Shown here: piece by piece, positions 42,991 through 55,425 of the stretch
Position numbering within the stretch: the stretch's first letter is position 1
Layout: each line of letters begins with the position of its first letter
Notes under the pieces: model-generated
Told to the model about the DNA's origin: nothing
The model's input: the letters and a program-made list of their open reading frames with translations, nothing else
Databases searched by the model: none
Assembly: GCF_003992125.1 (NCBI RefSeq)
Contig: NZ_RQUY01000010.1
Location: 1-64,000, forward strand
From: Veillonella caviae
Lineage (GTDB): Bacteria; Bacillota; Negativicutes; Veillonellales; Veillonellaceae
Reading direction: 5' to 3'
DNA: 64,000 nucleotides
Program-made: the position numbers and the translations under genes

Positions 42991-43491
42991 ATGATTCGTC
43001 GAACTCTGTTAGCAGTATTAGCAACCACTATTTTAGGGAATACAGCTTTCGCAGGTGATTTAACAGCTGTTCGGATATCTAACTATGATGGCACGAGCCG
43101 TATTGTATTAGACTTGACAGAATTGCCACTGTCTTGGACTAAATCTTATAATGATACGACTAATACGGTAACCTTGAATTTAGCGAATACAAATAATAAA
43201 GTTAATCAATCCATAGATAGGGATACCAATCAAAAGGGAGTGCTAAAAGGTATTGGGTTTACCACAATTAACGGTGGATTACAAGTTAAATTGATAGGTA
43301 ATCAAGATATTAATTATCATGCTTTTACTTTATCTAAACCAGAACGTCTTGTGGTGGATATGTTTTCTGATTATAGTCAAAAGACGACTCGAAACATTAA
43401 CGACTCTATACAAATATCAAAAATTAAAAGTACTGTGCAGAAGGTATCATTCAGGCGTTATCTATGGTGGTTAGTAATGAATCGCCTATGA
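42991..43491 (+). pseudogene. AMIN-domain fragment, 5' part of a probably frameshifted gene
   Basis: 166-aa reading frame with signal peptide (MIRRTLLAVLATTILGNTAFA) and an AMIN-like beta domain (about 24-125: ISNYDGTSRIVLDLTE, FTLSKPERLVVDMF). AMIN domains bind peptidoglycan or target periplasmic proteins. The last ~17 residues (KVSFRRYLWWLVMNRL) look out of frame. The reading continues in the -1 frame at 43428-44324 with a second domain, so one AMIN-glycosidase gene seems split, probably by a missing base in AAAA 43426-43429. A genuine short AMIN protein is the alternative. Confidence 0.6.
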
Positions 43492-44324
43492 AAATTATCA
43501 ATTCTACACAAGGTATAGCATTGTCTCAAATTGGTCAATCTCATGTAGCGGCAGTTGGGTTAAAGACGGTAAATGCTAATTTTGATAAACCATATGCAGT
43601 GAGCAAAACAGGTGAAGCGGATGTTGATAAAATACAATCTACTGGGGTGTTGCGATATACGCCTAGTAGAGGTTATTTTGTAGAAGAGAAGCGACCTTTG
43701 TTACAAGCAAAAGCTGGTAACGATACATTGTTGATTTCTGCTGTTAATGAACCGCGTCGTAACAATACGTTAACATTGTATACAAATCAGTATGGTTCCT
43801 CTACCAATACCAATCAATATGGTTATGAAGTGACTGTTAAGTCTGGGAAAGTGGTAAATCTATCAAAAGGGAATTCGCCCATAACTGAGGGGGGATATGT
43901 CCTTTCTGCACATGGCGAAGCGATTAAAGCATTAAAAACTTTGAAAGTAGGTACCCCTGTTGTACTAGAAACGAGACCAGAGTTAGCTAAAATTGATACT
44001 GATGGGGGATCCTTGTTTGAGGGAGGAACATTGGTGTTGAAGCAGGGGCATTATGTAGGTCCTAGCCATTCGCTAAATGAAAGTCGTTCGTTAATAGGTA
44101 CTACGAAGGATGAAAAGTTAGTGGTTGCTGTTGTTGACAAAGCATTACCTACATCGGTGGGGGTTACCTTAGAGGAGGGTGCAGCATTACTATCTTCTAT
44201 GGGGGCTATTAATGGATTTGAGTTATCTAACCAAGGTGGTGTTGATATAACAGTTAATCGAGATTATATTCATAAAACTGACAATCAATACACAGAATAT
44301 AAAAATATATTGCTTATCAAATAA
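43428..44324 (+). pseudogene. Phosphodiester-glycosidase-like fragment, 3' part
   Basis: Open from 43428 to the stop at 44324, with an internal ATG at 43464 that lacks a Shine-Dalgarno. TLYTNQYGSSTNTNQYGYEV, SKGNSPITEGGYVLSAHG and VGTPVVLETRPEL match the central and C-terminal part of secreted phosphodiester glycosidase (NAGPA-like) proteins. The usual INGGYF-type motif near the domain start was not found, so part may be deleted or degenerate. It has no signal peptide of its own, which supports its being the tail of the AMIN frame. A sequencing error or true loss cannot be separated. Confidence 0.55.
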
Positions 44325-44343: not shown

Positions 44344-44372
44344 TTGAGAAAAACATTTAAATTTAGTATAAT
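44344..44372 (+). promoter_or_regulatory. Promoter of the lipoyl-like/S55/mla segment
   Basis: -35 TTGAGA (44344-44349), 17-bp spacer, -10 TATAAT (44367-44372). About 37 nt before the lipoyl-like gene. Confidence 0.7.
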
Positions 44373-44408
44373 ACACTTATGTATCTAATTAAAAAAGGAG
44401 GGAGCGTT

Positions 44409-44693
44409 ATGAAAAAAACAATGTTAGCCTTAGTTGCATTAACAGCAATAGGCATTACTTCTGCAATGGCGGCCCCTGTATCATATCAAAGTGTATTAAC
44501 AGGTAAAGTAGCTTCTGTTGTTAATGTTGGTGCGCCTGTTACAGAGGGACAGACATTAGTAACTGTAGAAACCTTAGCAGGTCCAATGGCGGCAGCTAAA
44601 TCTACTGTAACTGGTACTGTATCTGCAGTGAATGTTACAGTAGGATCTGACGTTTCTCGTGACCAAGTCGTTGTCACAGTGGAAAGCAAATAA
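44409..44693 (+). CDS. Small secreted biotinyl/lipoyl-like domain protein
   Basis: 94 aa: signal peptide (1-23, cut after AMA) and one lipoyl-like domain built of two similar halves, VLTGKVASVVNVGAPVTEGQ and TVTGTVSAVNVTVGSDVSRD, each followed by a VTVE strand. The halves mimic the hammerhead of biotinyl/lipoyl and HlyD/RND-adaptor domains. The usual MKM/DKA turn is LAGPMAAAKS, so no standard modification Lys. An exported free-standing lipoyl-like module is unusual. AAAGGAGGGAG sets ATG 44409. It precedes the S55 protease by 11 nt. Function unknown. Confidence 0.75.
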   Translation: MKKTMLALVALTAIGITSAMAAPVSYQSVLTGKVASVVNVGAPVTEGQTLVTVETLAGPMAAAKSTVTGTVSAVNVTVGSDVSRDQVVVTVESK

Positions 44694-44704: not shown

Positions 44705-46639
44705 ATGAAGTTTACTCATTCTTGGCGTCGGTATAGAAAAACGATACTGGCGCTTTTCTTCTGTAGTGCTCTAACATCGGTGCAGGCTGTAGATTTTATG
44801 TCTGTTAGTGATGTTGAGACCGGTATGGAAGGTATAGCAAAAACAGTAATTGTGGGAGATACCATTTCTGCTTTTGATGTAAAGGTATTAGGTGTTATGA
44901 AGGATAAAGGTCCTTCGGGTCATTTGATATTGGCAAAATTCTCAGGCCCTGTAATGGAACAGACTGGTGGTATTGCACATGGTATGAGTGGTAGCCCTGT
45001 ATATATCAATGGTAAGTTAGTTGGTGCTGTAGCTTATGGTTGGGGTTTTGCAGATGGTACTATTGGTATGATTACACCTATCGAAGATATGGTGAAACTA
45101 TGGAATATTCCGTATGAAAAAAATCTGACTAACATATGGTCTGACCAACAATTAATCCCTATGAAAACACCATTGATGGCTTATGGTTTTGATAGAACAT
45201 CGATGGATTACTTTAAATCTAAATTACCACAATATAATTATGAAACCTATGATACGGCTTCCTCTAGTGGTGATGATATAGCTAAACCACTTGTAGATGG
45301 TGGTTCTGTAGCAGCTCTCTTAGTAGATGGTGATTTAAAACTTGGTGCTATTGGTACTGTTACTTATGTAGATGGTAATCAAATAGTAGCTTTTGGACAT
45401 CCATTTTTAAAACATGGTTCAGCTAATTATTTTATGCATAATGCCAATATTTTTACCGTAGTTAAAAGTTATGAATCAGCTTTTAAATTAGGATCTATGG
45501 GTAGTGAAATCGGGACCGTAACAGAAGATCGTGGTGCTGGTATTGCTGGTGTATCTGGTGTTATTTCTAGTGGCATTCCAATGCGATTTAATCTAATTGA
45601 TTTAGATATGGGGCGAGATACAGTCTCTAATGTGAAAGTTATTGAAGATAAGGAGATGACCCCTACATTAGCGGCTACGTCTTTATATAATATGCTTAAT
45701 AAAACATTGGATCGTAGTGGTTCTGGTACAGCTACTATTAGTTATACTATTACGCCTAGAAATAAAAATTTAAAATCATTAACTAGAACGAATATGTTCT
45801 ATAGCTCTGATTCTATTAGTGAAAAAACAGTTGATGAGTTCTATAATGTTATTGACGTGTTGATGAATAATCGTTTTATTGATTATGAAATTACTGATAT
45901 TCAGGTGAAAACAAAGGTAACACAAGATAAGAAAACAGCTAAGCTCATTGATGCCACTGCATCTTCTACTATTGTTTCACCAGGAGATACCATTGTTATC
46001 GATGTCGTTCTTGAACCATATCGTGGCGATAAAATCGTTAAGGAAATTTTCTTTACTGTTCCTAAAGATAAACCTCTTGGGACCTATACATTAGAAGTTC
46101 GTGGTGGTGGAGAAATTCCTTTGCCATATGTACTGGAAAAACAGAAATACAATCTTACTGATGAAGTAATACGTCGATTAAAAGTATATAAAGATTTTGA
46201 CGATTTGTTTGATGAATTGCAAAAAACAGATACGAATAATCAAATTGTTGTTGAATTCTTAGAAGATGGTATTAGCTTAGTTAATGAAGAATCATCTACA
46301 AAAGCTGTAAAAAAAGCAAAACTACGAGATGTAGAAGAGAAACCATCACCAGAGGGGATTAAGAAAAAGAAATCTACTGATGATATTGGCGATGGTAAAG
46401 ATGATGATAAGAAAAAGGAAAAAACTGCAGTTGATACAGAATATATTGTACAAGGTGATGGGCAATTTACAATTCAAGTTATGGATCCACGTAAGCGAGA
46501 TAAAGTGTTAGAAAAACGTGAAAAAGAAGCGAAAGCTAAGGCGAAAATGGAACATAAATTAGAATTAGAAAAACTAGAGCATTCAAAAGATAGTGAAAAA
46601 GTATCGGGTAGCAAAAATAAACAAGATGTAGCTAAGTAA
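44705..46639 (+). CDS. SpoIVB-type (S55) serine protease-like exported protein
   Basis: 644 aa. Signal peptide (1-28). Residues 85-112 carry TGGIAHGMSGSPVYINGKLV with probable nucleophile S97, as in the end of SpoIVB. Residues 215-240 have GAIGTVTYVDGNQIVAFGHPF with probable H232, like the beginning of SpoIVB's catalytic domain, so motif order is reversed. A beta-rich region and a highly charged Lys/Asp/Glu tail (about 530-644) follow. Sporulation is not expected here; a periplasmic envelope-quality or signalling protease is inferred. Sits 11 nt before mlaE. Confidence 0.75.
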   Translation: MKFTHSWRRYRKTILALFFCSALTSVQAVDFMSVSDVETGMEGIAKTVIVGDTISAFDVKVLGVMKDKGPSGHLILAKFSGPVMEQTGGIAHGMSGSPVYINGKLVGAVAYGWGFADGTIGMITPIEDMVKLWNIPYEKNLTNIWSDQQLIPMKTPLMAYGFDRTSMDYFKSKLPQYNYETYDTASSSGDDIAKPLVDGGSVAALLVDGDLKLGAIGTVTYVDGNQIVAFGHPFLKHGSANYFMHNANIFTVVKSYESAFKLGSMGSEIGTVTEDRGAGIAGVSGVISSGIPMRFNLIDLDMGRDTVSNVKVIEDKEMTPTLAATSLYNMLNKTLDRSGSGTATISYTITPRNKNLKSLTRTNMFYSSDSISEKTVDEFYNVIDVLMNNRFIDYEITDIQVKTKVTQDKKTAKLIDATASSTIVSPGDTIVIDVVLEPYRGDKIVKEIFFTVPKDKPLGTYTLEVRGGGEIPLPYVLEKQKYNLTDEVIRRLKVYKDFDDLFDELQKTDTNNQIVVEFLEDGISLVNEESSTKAVKKAKLRDVEEKPSPEGIKKKKSTDDIGDGKDDDKKKEKTAVDTEYIVQGDGQFTIQVMDPRKRDKVLEKREKEAKAKAKMEHKLELEKLEHSKDSEKVSGSKNKQDVAK

Positions 46640-46650
46640 GGAGGAGCACG

Positions 46651-47412
46651 GTGAACGTATTTGAAGTGCTAGGTCGTAAAGTAATCAATGGCCTATCTCA
46701 AGTGGGAACGGCTATGCTTCTGATTTGGCAAACTATAAAACAATTAAGAATGCTAAATATTTGGCATGTATTGCAACAAATGGCACATCTTGGGGTAGAT
46801 TCGCTGCCAATTATTAGCTTAACATTACTATTTGCTGGTGGCGTTATGACCTTGCAGATTACAGATGTTCTTATTAAATACGGTGCACAAAGCACTGTAG
46901 GTGGGTTGATGGCAGTGGCTATGGGACGTGAATTAGGACCTATTCTTGTTGGAGTCGTCTTGGCTGGTCGTGTTGGTGCTGCTATTACTGCAGAGATTGG
47001 TACGATGAAGGTAACTGAGCAAATTGATGCACTCCGCGTTATGGCCGTGAATCCGATTGCTTATTTAGTTGTACCTCGTGTAGTAGCTTGTATGCTTATG
47101 GTCCCTATCCTTGCCTTTTATGGTGTTGTGATTGGCATTGGAGGTGGCTATTTTGTAGCCACATCAATTAAAGGATTAGCACCTACTACTTATTTAGATT
47201 CCATACAAATGTTTTCTACTATTTCTGATTTTACATTAGGTTTAGTGAAATCTAGCGTTTTTGGTGCAGTCATTGCTTTGGTTGGTGCCTATAAAGGGAT
47301 GCAAACTAAAATGGGTGCAGAAGCAGTTGGTTTTTCCACTACTAGTTCTGTTGTAACTAGCATTATCTTAGTATTTGTATTGAATTACTTCTTATCTTCT
47401 TTGCTTTATTAA
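46651..47412 (+). CDS. mlaE: MlaE-family ABC permease for phospholipid transport
   Basis: 253-aa inner-membrane protein with an N-terminal amphipathic helix and about five hydrophobic segments. The signature GAAITAEIGTMKVTEQIDALRVMAVNP carries the conserved E-Q of MlaE. It dimerises with MlaF and the MCE ring of MlaD to move phospholipids between the inner and outer membranes. GTG 46651 follows GGAGGAG. Neighbours mlaF and mlaD complete a minimal system; no mlaA, mlaB or mlaC is seen here. Confidence 0.93.
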   Translation: MNVFEVLGRKVINGLSQVGTAMLLIWQTIKQLRMLNIWHVLQQMAHLGVDSLPIISLTLLFAGGVMTLQITDVLIKYGAQSTVGGLMAVAMGRELGPILVGVVLAGRVGAAITAEIGTMKVTEQIDALRVMAVNPIAYLVVPRVVACMLMVPILAFYGVVIGIGGGYFVATSIKGLAPTTYLDSIQMFSTISDFTLGLVKSSVFGAVIALVGAYKGMQTKMGAEAVGFSTTSSVVTSIILVFVLNYFLSSLLY

Positions 47413-47433: not shown

Positions 47434-48192
47434 ATGATAGAATTACATGATGTAGTTGTGGCCTATGATTCTCGAGTGATTTTAGACTCTATCAATCTTA
47501 CTATAGCTGATGGCGAAACATTAGTTGTTTTAGGTGGTAGTGGTAGTGGTAAAAGTACACTCTTGCGTTTGCTTATTGGCTTACAACGACCTACATCTGG
47601 TCAGATTATAGTAGATGGCATAGATATTACTACTATTTCTGAAGAAGAATTTAATAAGGTGCGCCAAAAGATGGGGATGGTATTTCAATACTCTGCATTA
47701 TTTGACTCTATGAATGTAGGGGAGAATGTAGCTTTTGGTTTACGACAACATACACAAAAATCAGAGACGGAAATCTTTGATATTGTGAGTGAACGCTTGG
47801 GGTGGGTAGGCCTTAGTGGTTATGAATCTTATATGCCCAATGAATTATCTGGAGGCATGAAAAAGCGTGTTAGTTTGGCAAGAGCTATTGCATTAGATCC
47901 TACGCTGATATTATATGATGAACCTTCATCTGGTCTTGACCCGATTACGTCTGGTACCATTAGTATGCTCATTAGAGGTATGCAAGAACGATTAGGTTGT
48001 ACATCTGTAGTGGTTACGCATGATATGCAGTCCGCATTTTATGTAGCCGATCGAATCGCTTTACTCGATAAAGGACGATTTGTTGAAATCTCAACAGCGG
48101 AAGAGTTTAAGCATTCTTCACATCCAAAGGTACAACAATTTATAAATGGTGAAGCAGAAGCTATCGATATAGTAACAAGGGGAGACATATAA
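47434..48192 (+). CDS. mlaF: MlaF-type ABC ATPase
   Basis: 252-aa ATPase. Walker A GGSGSGKST (34-42), signature LSGGMKKRVSLARAIALDP, Walker B LILYDEPSSGLDP and switch VTHDMQ. It powers the MlaE permease in the cytoplasm. ATG 47434 is 21 nt after mlaE; mlaD overlaps its final base (TAATG), so the three are translationally coupled. Confidence 0.94.
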   Translation: MIELHDVVVAYDSRVILDSINLTIADGETLVVLGGSGSGKSTLLRLLIGLQRPTSGQIIVDGIDITTISEEEFNKVRQKMGMVFQYSALFDSMNVGENVAFGLRQHTQKSETEIFDIVSERLGWVGLSGYESYMPNELSGGMKKRVSLARAIALDPTLILYDEPSSGLDPITSGTISMLIRGMQERLGCTSVVVTHDMQSAFYVADRIALLDKGRFVEISTAEEFKHSSHPKVQQFINGEAEAIDIVTRGDI

Positions 48193-49454
48193 TGAAGTGG
48201 ACAACGGAAGCCAAAGTAGGGGCTTTCACAATAATTGGTATAGTATTATTTATTGTAGGTATTTTATTTGTGGGAAAAGTAGATGTTTTCGGGAAACCAC
48301 AAATGACTATTACAGGTGATTTTGAACAAGTAAATGGTTTGAAAAATGGGAACCAAGTTAAATTTTCTGGTGTAGCTATCGGTACTGTATCAGATATTGA
48401 AATTACATCTACAGGTGTTGTGGTGAGTATGAAAGTCGATGATAATACTAAAATTCCAATTGACTCTCAATTTACACTAGGTTCTGATGGTTTTTTAGGC
48501 GATAAATTTATTCAAATTTCACCAGGTAGTTCTAAAGTGTATTTGCATGACGGCGATGCTGTTAAAGGTGAAGGCGCAGATGCGATGGATAAAGCTATGC
48601 ACAGCGCGCAAAAGCTGATGGCTGGAACAGAGCAAATGTTGCAATCTATCAATAATATTATCGGTGACCCTCAAACGCAAAGTGCACTAAAATATTCATT
48701 GCAATCTACGGCTACTATGGCAGATAATGCAGTGGCTATTACACAAAATATGGCTGATGTGACAGCGCAATTAAATGCAGCGGCGCAACAGTTTAATGCA
48801 GATGGTAATGCTGGTGAAGATATGCGTGCTATTTTAACAAATATTAAACAAACCACAGAACGAGTAGATAATATGGCACGTACTATGGAAGGAACTGTAA
48901 CAGATCCAAAAGCACAAGACAATTTAAAAGAAACATTGCATAATACGGCGCAGATTTCTGCACGTGTTAATAAATTGATGGGCGGTAAGGCTTATCATAG
49001 TGAATCAGGAAACGTAGAAGGCGAAATAGGAGAAGATTCTGAAAAAAAGTCTTCCCTTAAAGTAGAACCTTCTATGGATTTACTTTATAATACTAATGAG
49101 AATGAATTGCGCGTAAATGGTCGTGTACGTTTATTTACAGATAAAGGTATGGGAGAAATTGGAGTTTCTAATTTAGGTGATGGATCTGATTTTGATTTAA
49201 ATGGTGGTAAATTCATCGCATCCAAATGGTTAGTCCGTGGCGGTATTTTTGAAAATAAGCTAGGGGTGGGAATTGACTATAATCCACGTGGGTCTTTTTC
49301 ACTATCTGCTGTTATGTATGATTTAAATCATCGTAAATACCGATTGCGTTCTGATATACGAATAAATAAAGACACGTATGGTGTAGTACAAATGACGAGA
49401 CCTTTTGGTTCATCTAATGGAGGCACCTACTTTGGTATTAAACAAGTATTTTAA
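48192..49454 (+). CDS. mlaD: Long MlaD with MCE domain and beta-rich C-terminus
   Basis: 420 aa, against about 180 in E. coli MlaD. TM segment (11-29), MCE domain (37-112: VNGLKNGNQVKFSGVAIGTVSDIEI), a long helical stretch (130-265) and a C-terminal beta-rich region (290-420) with alternating strands, ending in an aromatic residue (KQVF) as outer-membrane barrels do. I recall published work on Veillonella parvula describing MlaD as a bridge across the envelope, anchored in the outer membrane by a C-terminal barrel; this sequence fits. It would ferry phospholipids without periplasmic MlaC. Confidence 0.88.
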   Translation: MKWTTEAKVGAFTIIGIVLFIVGILFVGKVDVFGKPQMTITGDFEQVNGLKNGNQVKFSGVAIGTVSDIEITSTGVVVSMKVDDNTKIPIDSQFTLGSDGFLGDKFIQISPGSSKVYLHDGDAVKGEGADAMDKAMHSAQKLMAGTEQMLQSINNIIGDPQTQSALKYSLQSTATMADNAVAITQNMADVTAQLNAAAQQFNADGNAGEDMRAILTNIKQTTERVDNMARTMEGTVTDPKAQDNLKETLHNTAQISARVNKLMGGKAYHSESGNVEGEIGEDSEKKSSLKVEPSMDLLYNTNENELRVNGRVRLFTDKGMGEIGVSNLGDGSDFDLNGGKFIASKWLVRGGIFENKLGVGIDYNPRGSFSLSAVMYDLNHRKYRLRSDIRINKDTYGVVQMTRPFGSSNGGTYFGIKQVF

Positions 49455-49477: not shown

Positions 49478-50941
49478 ATGAATAAGAAAGCCCTTTCCTT
49501 AGCTATTATTCTCTCTATGGCTACAACAGGCGCTTTTGCGACAGACGTTGTGTCTACATCTGTGAATAACAGTGCCAAATTATCAAAATATCAAAAAGAA
49601 GCAGTTCAATTGACGCAAAAACAATTAGCTCAAAAAGCAGCTCAAGGTGCTAAAACCTATGAATCGTCTATTGCATTAAATGAAGCGAATACCGTAGCTT
49701 TAGCATTAGCAAATAATAGAACTGCAAAGCAATCTATGTGGAGTTATGAGGCAAGCAAAGCTAATGTAAGTCAAGTGGCGGCTGGGAAAAATCCGTCCTT
49801 TACATATAGTTGGAGCGGTACGCGTAGTGGTGGAGATACGGGTAATGGTAAAAATGGAAGTCATAGTTTCAAACTATCGGCACCTGTATTTAGCCCTCAA
49901 CTAGATGCATCCATTGATTCTGCTCGTTATTCTCGTGAAGGTGCTGGTGCTGCTTACGAAGAAGCTCTTCAACAAGCGAAATATGATGCTATTAATGGTT
50001 ACTATACTTTGATTATGAATCGTAATTTAGTAGAAGTAGCAAATCAAGCTGTTCGTGACTACCAAGGTCATGTTGATAATGTAAATGCACAATATAATGT
50101 TGGTTTAGTAGCAAATTCTGATGTATTGGCAGCAAATACTAATTTAGCAGAATCTCAAACTACATTGGTAGAACGTCAAAATACAGCTAATCTTTCTGAA
50201 GCTAATTTGAACAATGTTATCGGCTATCCGGTGCAAACAGTGATTACTACAGCGGAACAAAACTTACAATACAGACCGTACAATGTTACATTAGAACAAG
50301 CAAAAGCATATGCTATGTTACACCGTTCTGCATTAATACAATCCGCTATGCAAGTAGAAGCTGCAGAAGAATCTGTTAAATCTGCAAAATATGGGTATTT
50401 ACCAACCGTATCTGTTTCTGCAGGTCGTGGCTATGCTGATACAGATGGCTATATTGGTAGTGACAACAAATCTTGGAGTATTGGCGCTGGTGCATCTTGG
50501 AGTATTTGGGATGGTGGCGCTACTCAAAATGCAATTAAACAAGCCGAAGCAAATTTAGAAAAAGCGAAAGAAGCTAACTTAGCTGCTGTTGATTCCGTGA
50601 ATCTTGCAGTACAACAAGCGTATTTAAATTTGCGTTCTGCTGAGCAAACTATTGCAAGTACACAAACGGCAGTAACACAAGGTCAAGAAAATTTCCGCAT
50701 TGCTACATTACGTTATCGTGCTGGTGTAGGTACTAATCTTGATGTACTTGATGCAGAAACTACATTGACTACAGCTCGTAACAACTACGTTCAAGCATTG
50801 TATAAATACAATGTAAGCATTGCTGCTCTTGAACAAGCTACAGGGATACCTTTAGAAACTCTAGTTGGTGAAGGTGCAGCTGTGATTGCCAATAGTGGTG
50901 CTGAAGCTGAATTGGCAGCCTTAAGTAATACACGTAATTAA
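49478..50941 (+). CDS. tolC: TolC-family outer-membrane efflux protein
   Basis: 487 aa with signal peptide (1-22, MATTGAFA) and two OEP repeats, each long helix pair plus beta strands (about 55-260 and 265-465). Sequences such as NVGLVANSDVLAANTNLAESQT and RYRAGVGTNLDVLDAETTLTTARNNY are the paired helix repeats of TolC. It forms a trimeric exit duct used by secretion or efflux pumps. It lies 23 nt after mlaD, then a terminator. The partner pump is not in this window. Confidence 0.9.
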   Translation: MNKKALSLAIILSMATTGAFATDVVSTSVNNSAKLSKYQKEAVQLTQKQLAQKAAQGAKTYESSIALNEANTVALALANNRTAKQSMWSYEASKANVSQVAAGKNPSFTYSWSGTRSGGDTGNGKNGSHSFKLSAPVFSPQLDASIDSARYSREGAGAAYEEALQQAKYDAINGYYTLIMNRNLVEVANQAVRDYQGHVDNVNAQYNVGLVANSDVLAANTNLAESQTTLVERQNTANLSEANLNNVIGYPVQTVITTAEQNLQYRPYNVTLEQAKAYAMLHRSALIQSAMQVEAAEESVKSAKYGYLPTVSVSAGRGYADTDGYIGSDNKSWSIGAGASWSIWDGGATQNAIKQAEANLEKAKEANLAAVDSVNLAVQQAYLNLRSAEQTIASTQTAVTQGQENFRIATLRYRAGVGTNLDVLDAETTLTTARNNYVQALYKYNVSIAALEQATGIPLETLVGEGAAVIANSGAEAELAALSNTRN

Positions 50942-50953
50942 TATAATATGTAG

Positions 50954-50986
50954 AAAACGACGTCCAGTATAGGACGTCGTTTTTTG
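50954..50986 (+). terminator. Terminator after tolC
   Basis: Perfect 12-bp stem AAAACGACGTCC (50954-50965) / GGACGTCGTTTT (50972-50983), then TT. Confidence 0.92.
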
Positions 50987-51093
50987 TAATTATATTATAC
51001 ATATTAATGTTCTATTTCAAAGAAAATACTGTAAAGGTGGCAGAAAAAGGCTTTATAAAATATAATATATACCTATTGTTAATGTCTGGTTTA

Positions 51094-51144: not shown

Positions 51145-54100
51145 ATGATGCGAAAGAAATGGTGCTTAGTTTGTGCTGCTTTATTAGGTATTTCAGTAGG
51201 TGCTGTTAATCCTATAGCTAACCAATACGTAGCACCTATTGTACAAGAACAATTACATACATCCCTTAATGGCAGTGTTCAATACGATTCGCTATCTGTT
51301 GGCTGGAATGGTGATGTGCATTTGCAAAATCTTGTTATTCGTGACTCGGATGAGCATTTAGTTGCTACTGTCCCGAATGCATCTGTATCCTTAAACTTAT
51401 CGTCTATACCTTCTATTGTATGGGGGAATACGAGTGGTGTTGGGATTATAGGTACTGTTGATTTAGATGCCCCAGATGTGCATATATGGCAGATGCCCGA
51501 TGGTACTTGGAACGTAACAACCTTGATTAAATCGAGTCAAGATAGTTCTAAAAAATCCTTTAATGGCGATGTGATAGTACATAATGGGACTGCTAAATTG
51601 CAATGGCAAAATGGCAATACACATGCCATAACAAACCTTGATGGTGTATTATCTATCGATGTAGATACGATTTCTAAAGGAACTATATCAGGGGCGTTAG
51701 ATAATCAATCGTTTAATGCCAATGGCTCTATTGATATGAACAAGAAAGATAACTTTGACATCTTTGTTTCGGCTAATCAACTAAATGTGGCGCCATTTAT
51801 CGAGTTACTACCTGTAAATAAAAATGTAACATTTTCTACAGGTATTTTAAAAGATGCTAGGATTCAGGTTACATCTCGCGATGGTATATATTCCTTAGCG
51901 GGTAGCGTACAGTTTGAAGATGTGGCAGGGAATGTTTTATACGGTAATAAAAAAGTTTCTTTAGCCAATGGTAATGGCCGTGTATTTTTACAAGATAAAC
52001 ATATATTGATTTCTCGTAGTGCATTTCTCGTTAATAATCAAACTGTAAAAACTAATGGTTTAGTTGATATTGAATCGGATGATGTTGGTTTGAATCTTAA
52101 TGTAGTAGTTGATTCTGCTGATATAGGTGCTTTTACAGAACAAATGATAACAGGTACTGTAGGTGGTCGTGCTCATATAGGAGGCACTAGTGTAAACCCT
52201 TTGGTTATTGCTTCTGTTAAAAGTAGTGGTCTTGGGTACAATGGTTATTTTATTGATAATGCCGAAGCGGATGTGATGTACACTGATGGTGTGGTTACGT
52301 TAAAACAAGGTACAGCATTTATTGGCGATGGTCATATCAAAGGCGAGGGGCGATATCGCATCGATTCAAGTGATTTTGATGTTTCTATGACGATGCATAA
52401 TGTGAATGTAGCAGCTGCTAGTGCAGGATTACCTGAACCGATGGCGGGCATTTTAAATGGTTCTGTTAAAGCGGTAGGTAAGAATAATACCGTTACTGCC
52501 TTACAAGGATCTATTGTAGCTGATACTGTATCTGTACGTGGTGTTACCATCGATACTGTACAGGGAACATTTGATTATGATGGAAATGCCACAAATGTGG
52601 CCCTCAATGGCGCTGTGGGAACAGGTACTTTCAGTGGTTATGGTACCTTACTAGATTCTGATTTGGATTTATCAGTATCTGGCAATTTACTAGATGTATC
52701 GAACTTTAAAAATTTGGTAGGTGCTGATATTGATGGTTATATAAATGCAACTGCTACTATAAAAGGGGCTATAGATAATCCGAATATAGTCGGTTCTATC
52801 GCTAGTGGAGAGCTTCACTATGGTGGTGCACATTTCAATTCTATTAACGCTGATTTTGAAGTTGCAAATCGTGTATTGGCTATAAATAATGGTCGTATTA
52901 GTGATGGTAATGGCAACTATGCTATGGATGGTACCTTTGGGTTAGATACTAAATCTTTAGAATTAGAACTCAATGCGACAGCTACGAGGATTGAGAATTT
53001 AATTAGACCGTTCACTGATGTGCCTATTACAGGTTGGTTTGAAACACATAATAAAATTACTGGTACTGTGGAGAATCCTCGTATTGTGGGAGAATCACAT
53101 TTATATGATGGTTCGCTATATGGCAAGCTCATCAGTGATGCTCGTGCGTCTTATACCGTAGATAATCAAGAGCTAAGATTATCCTCTATTAGCATCAAAG
53201 GTTATGGTGCCACAATAACTGGTAGTGGTACGGCATCTAGGGATAAGCTTGACATTGATTTTGTAGGCGATGATATCGATGTAAAACGATTGCTTATTAA
53301 TACTGATTACGATGTAGATGGGTATGTATCGGCTAAGGGTCGAATTCAAGGAAATGTAAATGACCCTCGATTTTATGGTGTGATTAATTCGAAAGCGCTT
53401 ACCATAAATGGTGAAACTATTTCTAATTTATTTGGTATGCTATATATTGACTCGGCGGTCATAAATTCCGAGAACCTTTCTTTTGATGAAGAAAATGGCG
53501 GTCATTATAAGGCAAAAGGAGGCATGTCCTTAGTCGGGGATCATCGTTTATTTGGCTCCTTAGATGTACAGGGCGGTCGTGTTAATAACTTACTTGAACT
53601 TTTAGGAAAATCAGTGCCAAATCTAGATGGATCCTTAAATGGCGCTATGGATATTGCTGGTACCCGTGATAATCCTAGCGTGCATGTCGTAGGTACCGTA
53701 AAAGATGTGACTATTGATAAACAAGTTGTTGGGGATGCAGAGGTAGATGCAGGATTAGAAAACCGTAAAATAACCGTTAAAACGATGAAACTACCTGTTG
53801 GTGATGGGATTATTGCTGCAGGGGGATCTATGGATTTAGATGGCGATTCAGATATACAAGTTGCTCTTCGCAATGTAGATGTGAAACAATTCATCCCATT
53901 GATTGGTAAGGATATTAATGCTACCGGTTCGGTTACAGGTGTTGTAAATATGACGGGGAAAACACAAAATCCTAAAATTGAATTATCTGCTAGTCTTGTA
54001 GATGGTTCATTTAATGGTGTTTCCATTGATCAAGCATTTATGTTGGCAACAATGGAAAATCGTGTAATTAATATCCAACGTATTCAAGGTGATAAAGGAG

Positions 54101-55425
54101 TTTACAAACTAAGTGCTTATGGTAAAATCCCATTGGCAGCTATTTATACATCTGGTTATTTAGATGCTAATGATAGCAAAGCTATGGATATGACCATAGA
54201 CTTTAATGATGCTGATATGGCCGTACTTCCATTGATGTTATCATCAGTAAAGGATGCGACTGGACAATTAAAAGGGCTTGTTCATATTACAGGAACCATT
54301 GATCAACCAGAGGCGTATGGCACTGTATCTATCCGAAATGGAATGATTAGCATTGATAAAATTGGAAACCCAATAAATAATATCGATGCAGACCTTATTT
54401 TTTCAGGACAACAAGGCGATTTCCAATCTCGTTTTATAATGGGTAAGGGGACTGCAGGTCTTGCTGCTAAGGTTAATTGGGAAGGTCATATAATGACTAA
54501 TTATCGGATGGCAGCTCAGTTAGAAGGTATTGATTTAGCTAATGAATATGTATCAGGTCCTCTAAAAGGTGAACTATATATTGCTGATAGAGATGGAATT
54601 CCTACATTGATGGGTCATATTGATCTAGAGGATATGAAACTTAAGATTCCGCTTTCCTATGAAAGTAGTGAAAGTACTAAAAATCTTGGTATGGATGTTA
54701 CTGTACATGCTGGCAAAAATGTACGGCTTTATGATAGAACTTTATACGATATGACCATTGGTGGCGATGTACATTTTGGTGGGTCTGTATTTTATCCGGA
54801 AGCTCGTGGTCAGTTTAATGTGGATAATGGTACTTTTAAATACTTAAGTCATACATTCGCTATTACAAAAGGAACGGCTAATTTTGTAAATGGTTCGTAT
54901 TTACCACGACTTCAATTAGATGCGGAAACGACGACTAATAATTATACGATAATGATTGGTGTCAATGGTACTGTGGATCAAATGAATTTAACACTTAAAT
55001 CTGATCCGCAACTATCAAGAAAACAAATTATTTCTATGCTAACCTTTGGTAGAGGTACATCAACTAATAGTAGCTCCATTTCTAATGAAGATGCAAATGC
55101 TATAGCAGTTGCTGGCGTGCAGATGTTTGCGTTCGGGTATGTTCAAGATGCATTGCAAAATACTTTGGGACTTGATCGTGTTAATATAACAACTGGATCT
55201 ATCGATCCTGATGAACCGACCAACCATGATACAGCAGGCCATTATAATATTGAAATAGGTAAATATATCTTGCCTAGAACGATGATCACTTATACACAAG
55301 GAATTAATAATAGCCAAACTAAATATGGTGTAGAGTATTCTGTAAAGAGAAATTTGAAATTGACAAGTTGGCATACTTCTAAAGGGAATACATATTTAGG
55401 TGGTCGTTGGACACGCGAATTTTAA
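51145..55425 (+). CDS. tamB: TamB-like translocation/assembly or lipid-bridge protein
   Basis: 1426-aa AsmA/DUF490-type protein. N-terminal anchor helix (about 5-24), then a very long beta-helical, repeat-like body with many G-T/D-G strands (IDGYINATATIKGAIDNPNIVG, VDGYVSAKGRIQGNVNDPRFYG). The C-terminal DUF490/TamB signature includes GTFKYLSHTFAITKGTANF, QLDAETTTNNYTIMIGV and DPQLSRKQIISMLTFGRG. Such proteins bridge inner and outer membranes and assist OMP assembly or phospholipid flow with TamA/BamA. GGAG (51135-51138) favours ATG 51145 over 51115. bamA follows. Confidence 0.9.
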   Translation: MMRKKWCLVCAALLGISVGAVNPIANQYVAPIVQEQLHTSLNGSVQYDSLSVGWNGDVHLQNLVIRDSDEHLVATVPNASVSLNLSSIPSIVWGNTSGVGIIGTVDLDAPDVHIWQMPDGTWNVTTLIKSSQDSSKKSFNGDVIVHNGTAKLQWQNGNTHAITNLDGVLSIDVDTISKGTISGALDNQSFNANGSIDMNKKDNFDIFVSANQLNVAPFIELLPVNKNVTFSTGILKDARIQVTSRDGIYSLAGSVQFEDVAGNVLYGNKKVSLANGNGRVFLQDKHILISRSAFLVNNQTVKTNGLVDIESDDVGLNLNVVVDSADIGAFTEQMITGTVGGRAHIGGTSVNPLVIASVKSSGLGYNGYFIDNAEADVMYTDGVVTLKQGTAFIGDGHIKGEGRYRIDSSDFDVSMTMHNVNVAAASAGLPEPMAGILNGSVKAVGKNNTVTALQGSIVADTVSVRGVTIDTVQGTFDYDGNATNVALNGAVGTGTFSGYGTLLDSDLDLSVSGNLLDVSNFKNLVGADIDGYINATATIKGAIDNPNIVGSIASGELHYGGAHFNSINADFEVANRVLAINNGRISDGNGNYAMDGTFGLDTKSLELELNATATRIENLIRPFTDVPITGWFETHNKITGTVENPRIVGESHLYDGSLYGKLISDARASYTVDNQELRLSSISIKGYGATITGSGTASRDKLDIDFVGDDIDVKRLLINTDYDVDGYVSAKGRIQGNVNDPRFYGVINSKALTINGETISNLFGMLYIDSAVINSENLSFDEENGGHYKAKGGMSLVGDHRLFGSLDVQGGRVNNLLELLGKSVPNLDGSLNGAMDIAGTRDNPSVHVVGTVKDVTIDKQVVGDAEVDAGLENRKITVKTMKLPVGDGIIAAGGSMDLDGDSDIQVALRNVDVKQFIPLIGKDINATGSVTGVVNMTGKTQNPKIELSASLVDGSFNGVSIDQAFMLATMENRVINIQRIQGDKGVYKLSAYGKIPLAAIYTSGYLDANDSKAMDMTIDFNDADMAVLPLMLSSVKDATGQLKGLVHITGTIDQPEAYGTVSIRNGMISIDKIGNPINNIDADLIFSGQQGDFQSRFIMGKGTAGLAAKVNWEGHIMTNYRMAAQLEGIDLANEYVSGPLKGELYIADRDGIPTLMGHIDLEDMKLKIPLSYESSESTKNLGMDVTVHAGKNVRLYDRTLYDMTIGGDVHFGGSVFYPEARGQFNVDNGTFKYLSHTFAITKGTANFVNGSYLPRLQLDAETTTNNYTIMIGVNGTVDQMNLTLKSDPQLSRKQIISMLTFGRGTSTNSSSISNEDANAIAVAGVQMFAFGYVQDALQNTLGLDRVNITTGSIDPDEPTNHDTAGHYNIEIGKYILPRTMITYTQGINNSQTKYGVEYSVKRNLKLTSWHTSKGNTYLGGRWTREF

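Follow-up and report, generated by a model that had tools for sequence, protein, structure and literature searches.

A 64,000-nt stretch of Veillonella caviae DNA (the window) carries a small gene, bsh, at the head of a run of closely spaced genes that continues with an S55 (SpoIVB-like) protease gene, mlaE, mlaF, mlaD and a tolC-like gene (Table 1). The gaps from bsh through tolC are 11, 11, 21, -1 and 23 nt, and a terminator-like stem closes the run ahead of tamB. The bsh reading frame ends in TAA and has a AAAGGAGGG ribosome site ahead of its ATG; an automatic ORF listing places the start at 44379, 10 codons earlier than 44409. An earlier note on this DNA proposed that bsh shares a promoter with the S55 gene and mlaEFD. 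The well-matched promoter-like site 5' of bsh makes this plausible, although such sites are not in excess across the whole region (35 versus 31.5 in shuffled sequences, sd 6.1). Upstream of bsh, the gene coding for AMIN and phosphodiester glycosidase domains has a frame break around 43464-43491 and is a single frame in Veillonella relatives (loci L096 and L097). The split may reflect a pseudogene, a frameshift or an assembly error.

Table 1. Features of the bsh region of the window (positions in nt; aa, amino acids).
Feature	Position	Strand	Basis
NAGPA/DUF2233 phosphodiester glycosidase + AMIN gene, next gene 5' of bsh, split into two frames in the window	42991..44324	+	ORFs, Pfam; neighbour in most Negativicutes loci
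Promoter-like site TTGAGA-17-TATAAT, 11/12 matches, 36 nt 5' of the bsh ATG	44344..44372	+	Consensus match only
bsh, 94-aa exported free-standing barrel-sandwich-hybrid (BSH, lipoyl-like) protein	44409..44693	+	ORF, Pfam, AF2, Foldseek
Signal peptide MKKTMLALVALTAIGITSAMA/APV, probable cleavage after AMA	44409..44471	+	By eye; crude rule over orthologues
BSH domain, 72 aa, six strands	44475..44690	+	AF2 pLDDT 95; Foldseek matches to biotinyl domains
Hairpin TLAGPMAAAKS replacing the carrier-lysine turn; family motif T-x-x-G-x3-A-A-[RK]-A (K in Veillonella)	44571..44603	+	Column counts
S55 (SpoIVB-like) serine protease gene, likely partner	44705..46639	+	Profile, AF2, alignment; Ser95/His232/Asp275 invariant
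mlaE	46651..47412	+	PF02405, 2.5e-76
mlaF	47434..48192	+	MlaF model ranks best, 2.8e-64, under its cut-off
mlaD, long form	48192..49454	+	PF02470, 5.4e-18
tolC-like outer membrane efflux protein	49478..50941	+	PF02321, 9e-60
Terminator-like 17-pair stem 3' of tolC, at the end of the bsh-S55-mlaEFD-tolC run	50949..50988	+	
tamB	51145..55425	+	PF04357, 8.6e-45; alternative start 51115 in ORF listing

The bsh product matches the Pfam Biotin_lipoyl model above its cut-off (26.9 bits versus 22.1, E 4.3e-6), and none of the NCBIfam models matched the protein at its own cut-off. Its two halves align locally with a score of 59, which none of 2000 shuffled second halves reached (mean 23.4), bearing out the duplicated hammerhead half described in the earlier note. 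An AF2 model of the mature 72 residues, built on an alignment of 59 orthologues, has a pLDDT of 95.0 and a pTM of 0.75 and contains no helix. The best solved folds returned by Foldseek for this model are biotinyl domains, led by 2d5d (TMq 0.83, 28% identity). Because Pfam, the alignment of the halves, AF2 and Foldseek agree, the predicted fold is that of a real BSH domain. Failure to predict a lipoyl fold had been set beforehand as a possible refutation, and AF2 and Foldseek both returned that fold (TM about 0.83). Together with the signal peptide, this upholds the original description of a 94-aa exported lipoyl-fold protein. A crude export rule applied to the 59 orthologues found a hydrophobic stretch in 52 and an [AVSTGIL]xA site in 55.

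Biotin and lipoyl carriers are modified at a lysine in MKM or DKA motifs. In bsh the modification turn is occupied by LAGPMAAAKS, as previously noted, and none of the 59 Negativicutes orthologues has a lysine at the turn columns (34-37). A joint alignment of these 59 rows with 30 rows from a second phylum (see below) and two biotin paralogues identified MKM or [AS]MK in both paralogues and in 0 of the 59 + 30 BSH rows. The Negativicutes rows conserve G36 (59/59), A40 (57/59) and A43 (52/59), with arginine (56) or lysine (3) at position 42. The second-phylum rows conserve A40, A41 and A43 (30/30 each) and R42 (27/30). Position 42 is a valine in the other three and also in genomes G272 and G273, and three of the 30 rows have a lysine at column 36, outside any biotin motif. 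Strand alternation and the alignment to biotinyl domains suggest that A40 and R/K42 point outward from the hairpin.

We identified bsh by single-sequence search in all 40 genomes of the order and in 143 of the 200 genomes of the class (E<=1e-3). A profile search matched all 200 Negativicutes genomes, biotin enzymes included, and its listed matches separated into a first band at E<=9.6e-15 and a second at E>=4.3e-12, whose top match is in a 1155-aa frame. A hand count on the match table assigned orthologues, defined by the first band, to 142 of the 200 genomes, and the gene is conserved in Negativicutes. The 58 genomes lacking an orthologue comprise 33 of family code f14, 22 of f18 and three others (G124, G157 and G165), two of which have low completeness (72 and 58%). 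We then viewed 60 Negativicutes loci of up to 20 kb, hand-picked to span the family codes, and dropped two (L084 and L085) as biotin-carrier paralogues. In 57 of the remaining 58, an S55 gene in the same orientation lies no more than 400 nt 3' of bsh; the exception (L074) is a contig end. Most of these loci share the order phosphodiester glycosidase-BSH-S55-mlaE-mlaF-mlaD-tolC-tamB. In four of them (L043, L071, L083 and L091), the BSH-S55 pair stands without mla genes and MlaE is encoded elsewhere in the genome (G025, G099, G155 and G188). No fused BSH-S55 protein was present in the loci examined.

The gene pair also occurs outside the class. A wider survey covered 80 S55 loci from named genomes, out of 585 matching relatives, and among the loci listed BSH lies 5' of S55 in clusters like those of Negativicutes; the one clear outsider with this order is L130 (titled Armatimonadota), which reads BSH-S55-S55-TamB. 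We use "second phylum" for the 43 genomes of the phylum of L130, which do not include G203, a genome titled Armatimonadetes. Thirty-nine of the 43 encode bsh at E<=1e-12, and G272 and G273 carry it 5' of S55 at lower scores, bringing the count to 41. Neither BSH nor S55 was matched in the other two, the MAGs G247 and G274. S55 follows BSH in 28 of 30 second-phylum loci; the misses are an extra copy in G270, which has its own BSH at its S55 (L244), and an S55-deleted genome (L237). In 14 of 16 loci, S55 and then tamB lie 3' of BSH, the others being L254, where the S55 core is deleted, and L256, which holds an extra BSH. Searches with Veillonella queries (phmmer) detected no mla genes in these 16 loci, which span up to 20 kb. 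Across the second phylum, MlaE was identified in 20 of the 43 genomes, and none was found in 21 of the 41 with BSH (MAGs, which may be incomplete). Several second-phylum genomes have tandem S55 genes before tamB (e.g., L130, 5347-8933). The extra gene of G270 (L256, 9937-10395) is a second BSH-like gene apart from S55, another BSH preceding the S55 of that genome.

BSH was matched in none of the 61 genomes of the phylum of G203. It was matched in 1 of 81 genomes of the phylum of G228, with the same coordinates and E-value as in the Negativicutes genome G026. In a set of 42 genomes, G202 alone reached an E-value of 1e-12. Among the loci listed, S55-tamB or S55-mlaEFD neighbourhoods without BSH recur across other phyla. 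For example, S55 lies directly 5' of mlaE-mlaF(-mlaD) in L159, L164, L165, L170 and L172 (titled Riflebacteria, Synergistales, Wallbacteria and unnamed bacteria), and in several of these a NAGPA gene precedes S55. Negativicutes are therefore not the only group with an S55-mla neighbourhood. S55 is also found directly 5' of tamB, with no BSH, in L126, L132, L135, L141, L142 and L155 (titled Halanaerobiales, Halobacteroidaceae and other Bacillota).

The S55 gene persists where bsh is missing. A search of 59 Negativicutes genomes (the 58 lacking a bsh orthologue and G071) identified S55 in 54, the misses being G176, G144, G163, G189 and G124; thus, 53 of the 58 retain the protease. Since these genomes and those of other phyla have S55 without BSH, BSH is not required for S55 as such. 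Viewed on both strands, the best 30 loci of this search included one that still carries BSH (L176), 21 f14 loci ordered S55-murA and eight ordered S55-mlaE-mlaF, seven of them from f18 and one (L178) from f35. In part of f18, BSH is gone and NAGPA-S55-mlaE-mlaF is still in place. Of 37 genomes searched for MlaE, some with BSH and some lacking it, 36 gave a match, and the miss (G144) is also without S55. A quick tree of 88 S55 rows implies at least four changes between presence and absence of BSH, gain and loss not being distinguished by the tree. The wide spread of presence and a decayed copy lead us to favour losses rather than gains. The decayed copy is a BSH-like stretch before S55 in G165 (f35; L178, 3584-3910, minus strand; E 5.5e-4), whose similarity stops past the hairpin motif. 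This stretch fits decay in place rather than a plain loss of BSH in G165. In three f14 genomes without BSH (G119, G167 and G172), a single internal stop codon interrupts the S55 frame.

The S55 protein matches PF05580 (8.2e-13) and the SpoIVB structure 9lnf (profile E 8e-13; 121 columns in Foldseek), and its AF2 model has a pLDDT of 86.1. Ser95, His232 and Asp275 are present in 159 of 159 aligned rows, those from the wider survey having been picked by patterns that contain the serine and histidine (the aspartate was not in the patterns, and the remaining rows were not so picked). The alignment to SpoIVB suggests that these are the catalytic residues. The S55 profile region with Ser95 (37-113) aligns to positions 223-299 of the SpoIVB chain, and that with His232 (220-262) aligns weakly to positions 122-168, with a score of -2.3 that rests on GTxTy...ALGH versus AFGH. 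The serine thus precedes the histidine in S55, the reverse of SpoIVB, an apparent circular permutation of the two protease halves.

One second-phylum MAG separates parts of the S55 protein. Between an intact BSH and TamB, G285 has a 135-aa gene (L254, 9255-9662) whose product combines a signal-peptide-like start with the C-terminal ~100 residues of S55 and is missing the protease core. This tail is 50% identical over 100 aa to the end of the L258 S55 (E 1.7e-28), and no further S55 was found in the G285 genome. If the deletion is real in this one MAG, BSH has outlived the S55 protease core but not the S55 tail. We had dropped the tail as a marker of BSH-bearing genomes, given that its motif (T-x-Y-I-I-x-G-x) is kept in S55 proteins with and without BSH; G285 revives it as a candidate docking site.

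Parts of the cluster have been described in Veillonella and its relatives. Proteins Vpar_0519 and Vpar_0521 were recovered in outer-membrane fractions, the former as a DUF2233 neighbour and the latter as a SpoIVB-domain protein named as a target of unknown role (Poppleton 2017, PMC5491611, in the excerpted text). Its neighbours identify Vpar_0521 as the S55 gene and the numbering would make Vpar_0520 bsh, which has no mention in the main text of PMC5491611. Antunes 2016 (PMC5007114, excerpted text) counts a COG750 protease among the conserved unknowns of the cluster. The mlaEFD-tolC-tamB genes of V. parvula are treated in Grasekamp 2023 (PMC10665443), whose excerpted text has no mention of SpoIVB, hypothetical, biotin or lipoyl. 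No paper on the small bsh gene was found among open-licence PMC papers.

The bsh and S55 genes form a near-obligate pair in two very distant bacterial groups, and BSH is independent of Mla. The recurrence of the pair in both groups points to S55 as the likely partner of BSH. Furthermore, an accessory partner of S55 fits better than a part of Mla because the pairing holds in two phyla, the pair survives operon splits and BSH is lost without loss of S55 or Mla. We regard as evenly balanced the proposal that BSH is a dedicated non-catalytic partner of S55, bound through its hairpin, in a TamB/Mla phospholipid-traffic module. BSH would be exported to the periplasm as an unmodified domain and would bind S55 via the hairpin that holds the lysine in biotin carriers, with A40 and R/K42 facing outward. 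Once bound, it would hold, position or regulate S55 in the module that serves the outer membrane. Physical binding, the face involved and whether the protease would be activated, inhibited or tethered are the inferred parts of this proposal. It is favoured by the same hairpin motif in both phyla, the persistence of bsh beside S55 in the four genomes where S55 and mla are apart, the joint absence of BSH and S55 matches from G247 and G274, the retention of Ser95/His232/Asp275, the remnant in G285 and the S55-tamB and S55-mlaEFD neighbourhoods without BSH elsewhere. Counted against it are that gene order is not contact, that S55 exists without BSH, that G285 retains BSH without a protease core, that no BSH-S55 fusion was found in the loci examined and that R42 varies in the second phylum.

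The earlier note had instead viewed bsh as an adaptor resembling the lipoyl part of HlyD or AcrA that might close off the MlaD or TolC duct. Such an adaptor would form a ring, like the HlyD/AcrA lipoyl ring, on the hexamer of MlaD or the duct of TolC. The shared gene run of bsh, mlaEFD and tolC, seen in the window as in most Negativicutes loci, and the HlyD_D23 matches of 55 of 59 BSH rows (E<=0.1) are in keeping with this view. However, HlyD/AcrA adaptors contact TolC via alpha-hairpin and membrane-proximal domains, neither of which BSH has. Moreover, bsh tracks S55 rather than mla where the two are separated, mla is retained where BSH is lost and 21 second-phylum genomes have BSH with no MlaE found. 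Synteny with mlaEFD thus stands for most Negativicutes loci but not for G025, G099, G155 and G188 or for the second phylum, and no evolutionary tie of bsh to mlaEFD was found of the kind expected for an Mla component. For these reasons the adaptor was ruled down as our main reading and is highly improbable, leaving the earlier interpretation as a whole partly supported. A TamB-side subunit, in which BSH and the S55 C-terminal tail would act as a cap or guide for the TamB lipid bridge, would explain the BSH-S55-(S55)-tamB order of 14 of 16 second-phylum loci, the S55-tamB neighbours in other phyla and the retention of BSH, S55 tail and TamB in G285. We consider it unlikely, since tamB lies several genes downstream in Negativicutes, here past the terminator-like stem, and crown f14 genomes place S55 before murA.

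M23 and lipoyl domains belong to one fold group. Matches to M23 in 12 of 59 BSH rows (E<=0.1, best 1.1e-4) bring to mind a protein that S55 cleaves, as a substrate or to release it as a signal. BSH would be cut from the inner membrane to report the state of the envelope, much as SpoIVB, after which S55 is named, cleaves SpoIVFA in the linker before its LytM domain (PMC3808539, excerpted text). Yet the alignment reveals no cuttable linker from the signal peptide to the BSH domain, many BSH proteins should be soluble given the AxA-like site in 55 of 59 orthologues (crude rule) and in G285 BSH is still present although the protease core is not; such a role seems quite unlikely. The conserved, probably exposed hairpin residues without a lysine, and the repeated switches of BSH presence on the tree of S55, which is not itself lost, could also be explained if the hairpin bound a small ligand, lipid or peptidoglycan and bsh were merely co-regulated with S55. 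This is very unlikely, as it gives no account of bsh adjoining S55 in two phyla and past operon splits. An exported subunit of an enzyme carrying biotin or lipoate would agree with the Biotin_lipoyl score and the fold match. The carrier lysine is, however, absent, with no MKM or [AS]MK motif in the 59 + 30 rows, and the protein has a signal peptide; we consider a carrier function practically ruled out.

A dedicated partner of S55 could be extended to a two-part control of periplasmic phospholipid traffic outside Proteobacteria, in which a permuted SpoIVB-like protease and a lysine-less BSH regulator or tail anchor would act on TamB and, in Negativicutes, on the MlaD bridge as well. This extension is doubtful. 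If true, the SpoIVB-SpoIVFA pair would have a counterpart in the envelope, and S55 proteases would have been paired with BSH/M23-fold partners before sporulation made use of this arrangement, or independently of that use. The S55 protein of the Negativicutes outer-membrane cluster, a model for lipid movement in ancestral double-membrane bacteria, gains a probable partner absent from the excerpted text of the cited papers. The pair is documented in a second phylum and separated from Mla, and the hairpin residues are pinpointed. The biotinyl fold would, in this case, have gone from cofactor carrier to likely protein-binding unit outside the cytoplasm.

Known systems share some of these traits. 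The bsh product resembles biotinyl/lipoyl carriers (PF00364; BCCP, 2d5d, 1bdo) in fold (TM 0.83), length and two quasi-equal halves, but it is exported and has a T-x-x-G-x3-A-A-R-A hairpin instead of the carrier lysine. It also shares a periplasmic BSH domain and profile similarity with the HlyD/AcrA/BesA adaptors (BesA 4kku is among the Foldseek matches). In contrast to these adaptors, it is BSH only, with no alpha-hairpin, beta-barrel or membrane-proximal domain, and its gene is not tied to a transporter gene. The Veillonella parvula Mla system, to which bsh has no evolutionary tie, occupies the same mlaEFD-tolC-tamB locus (PMC10665443, excerpted text). The SpoIVB-SpoIVFA pair of Bacillus sporulation likewise links an S55-family protease with a protein that belongs to the BSH/M23 fold group (PMC3808539 and PMC3533761, excerpted texts), and the LytM domain of SpoIVFA is M23-like and likely inactive (PMC3533761, excerpted text). 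Unlike SpoIVFA, the BSH protein has no transmembrane helix and linker, and its M23 match is limited to the 12 of 59 rows. Unlike SpoIVB, the S55 protease has its serine before its histidine and is encoded amid TamB/Mla genes rather than sporulation genes.
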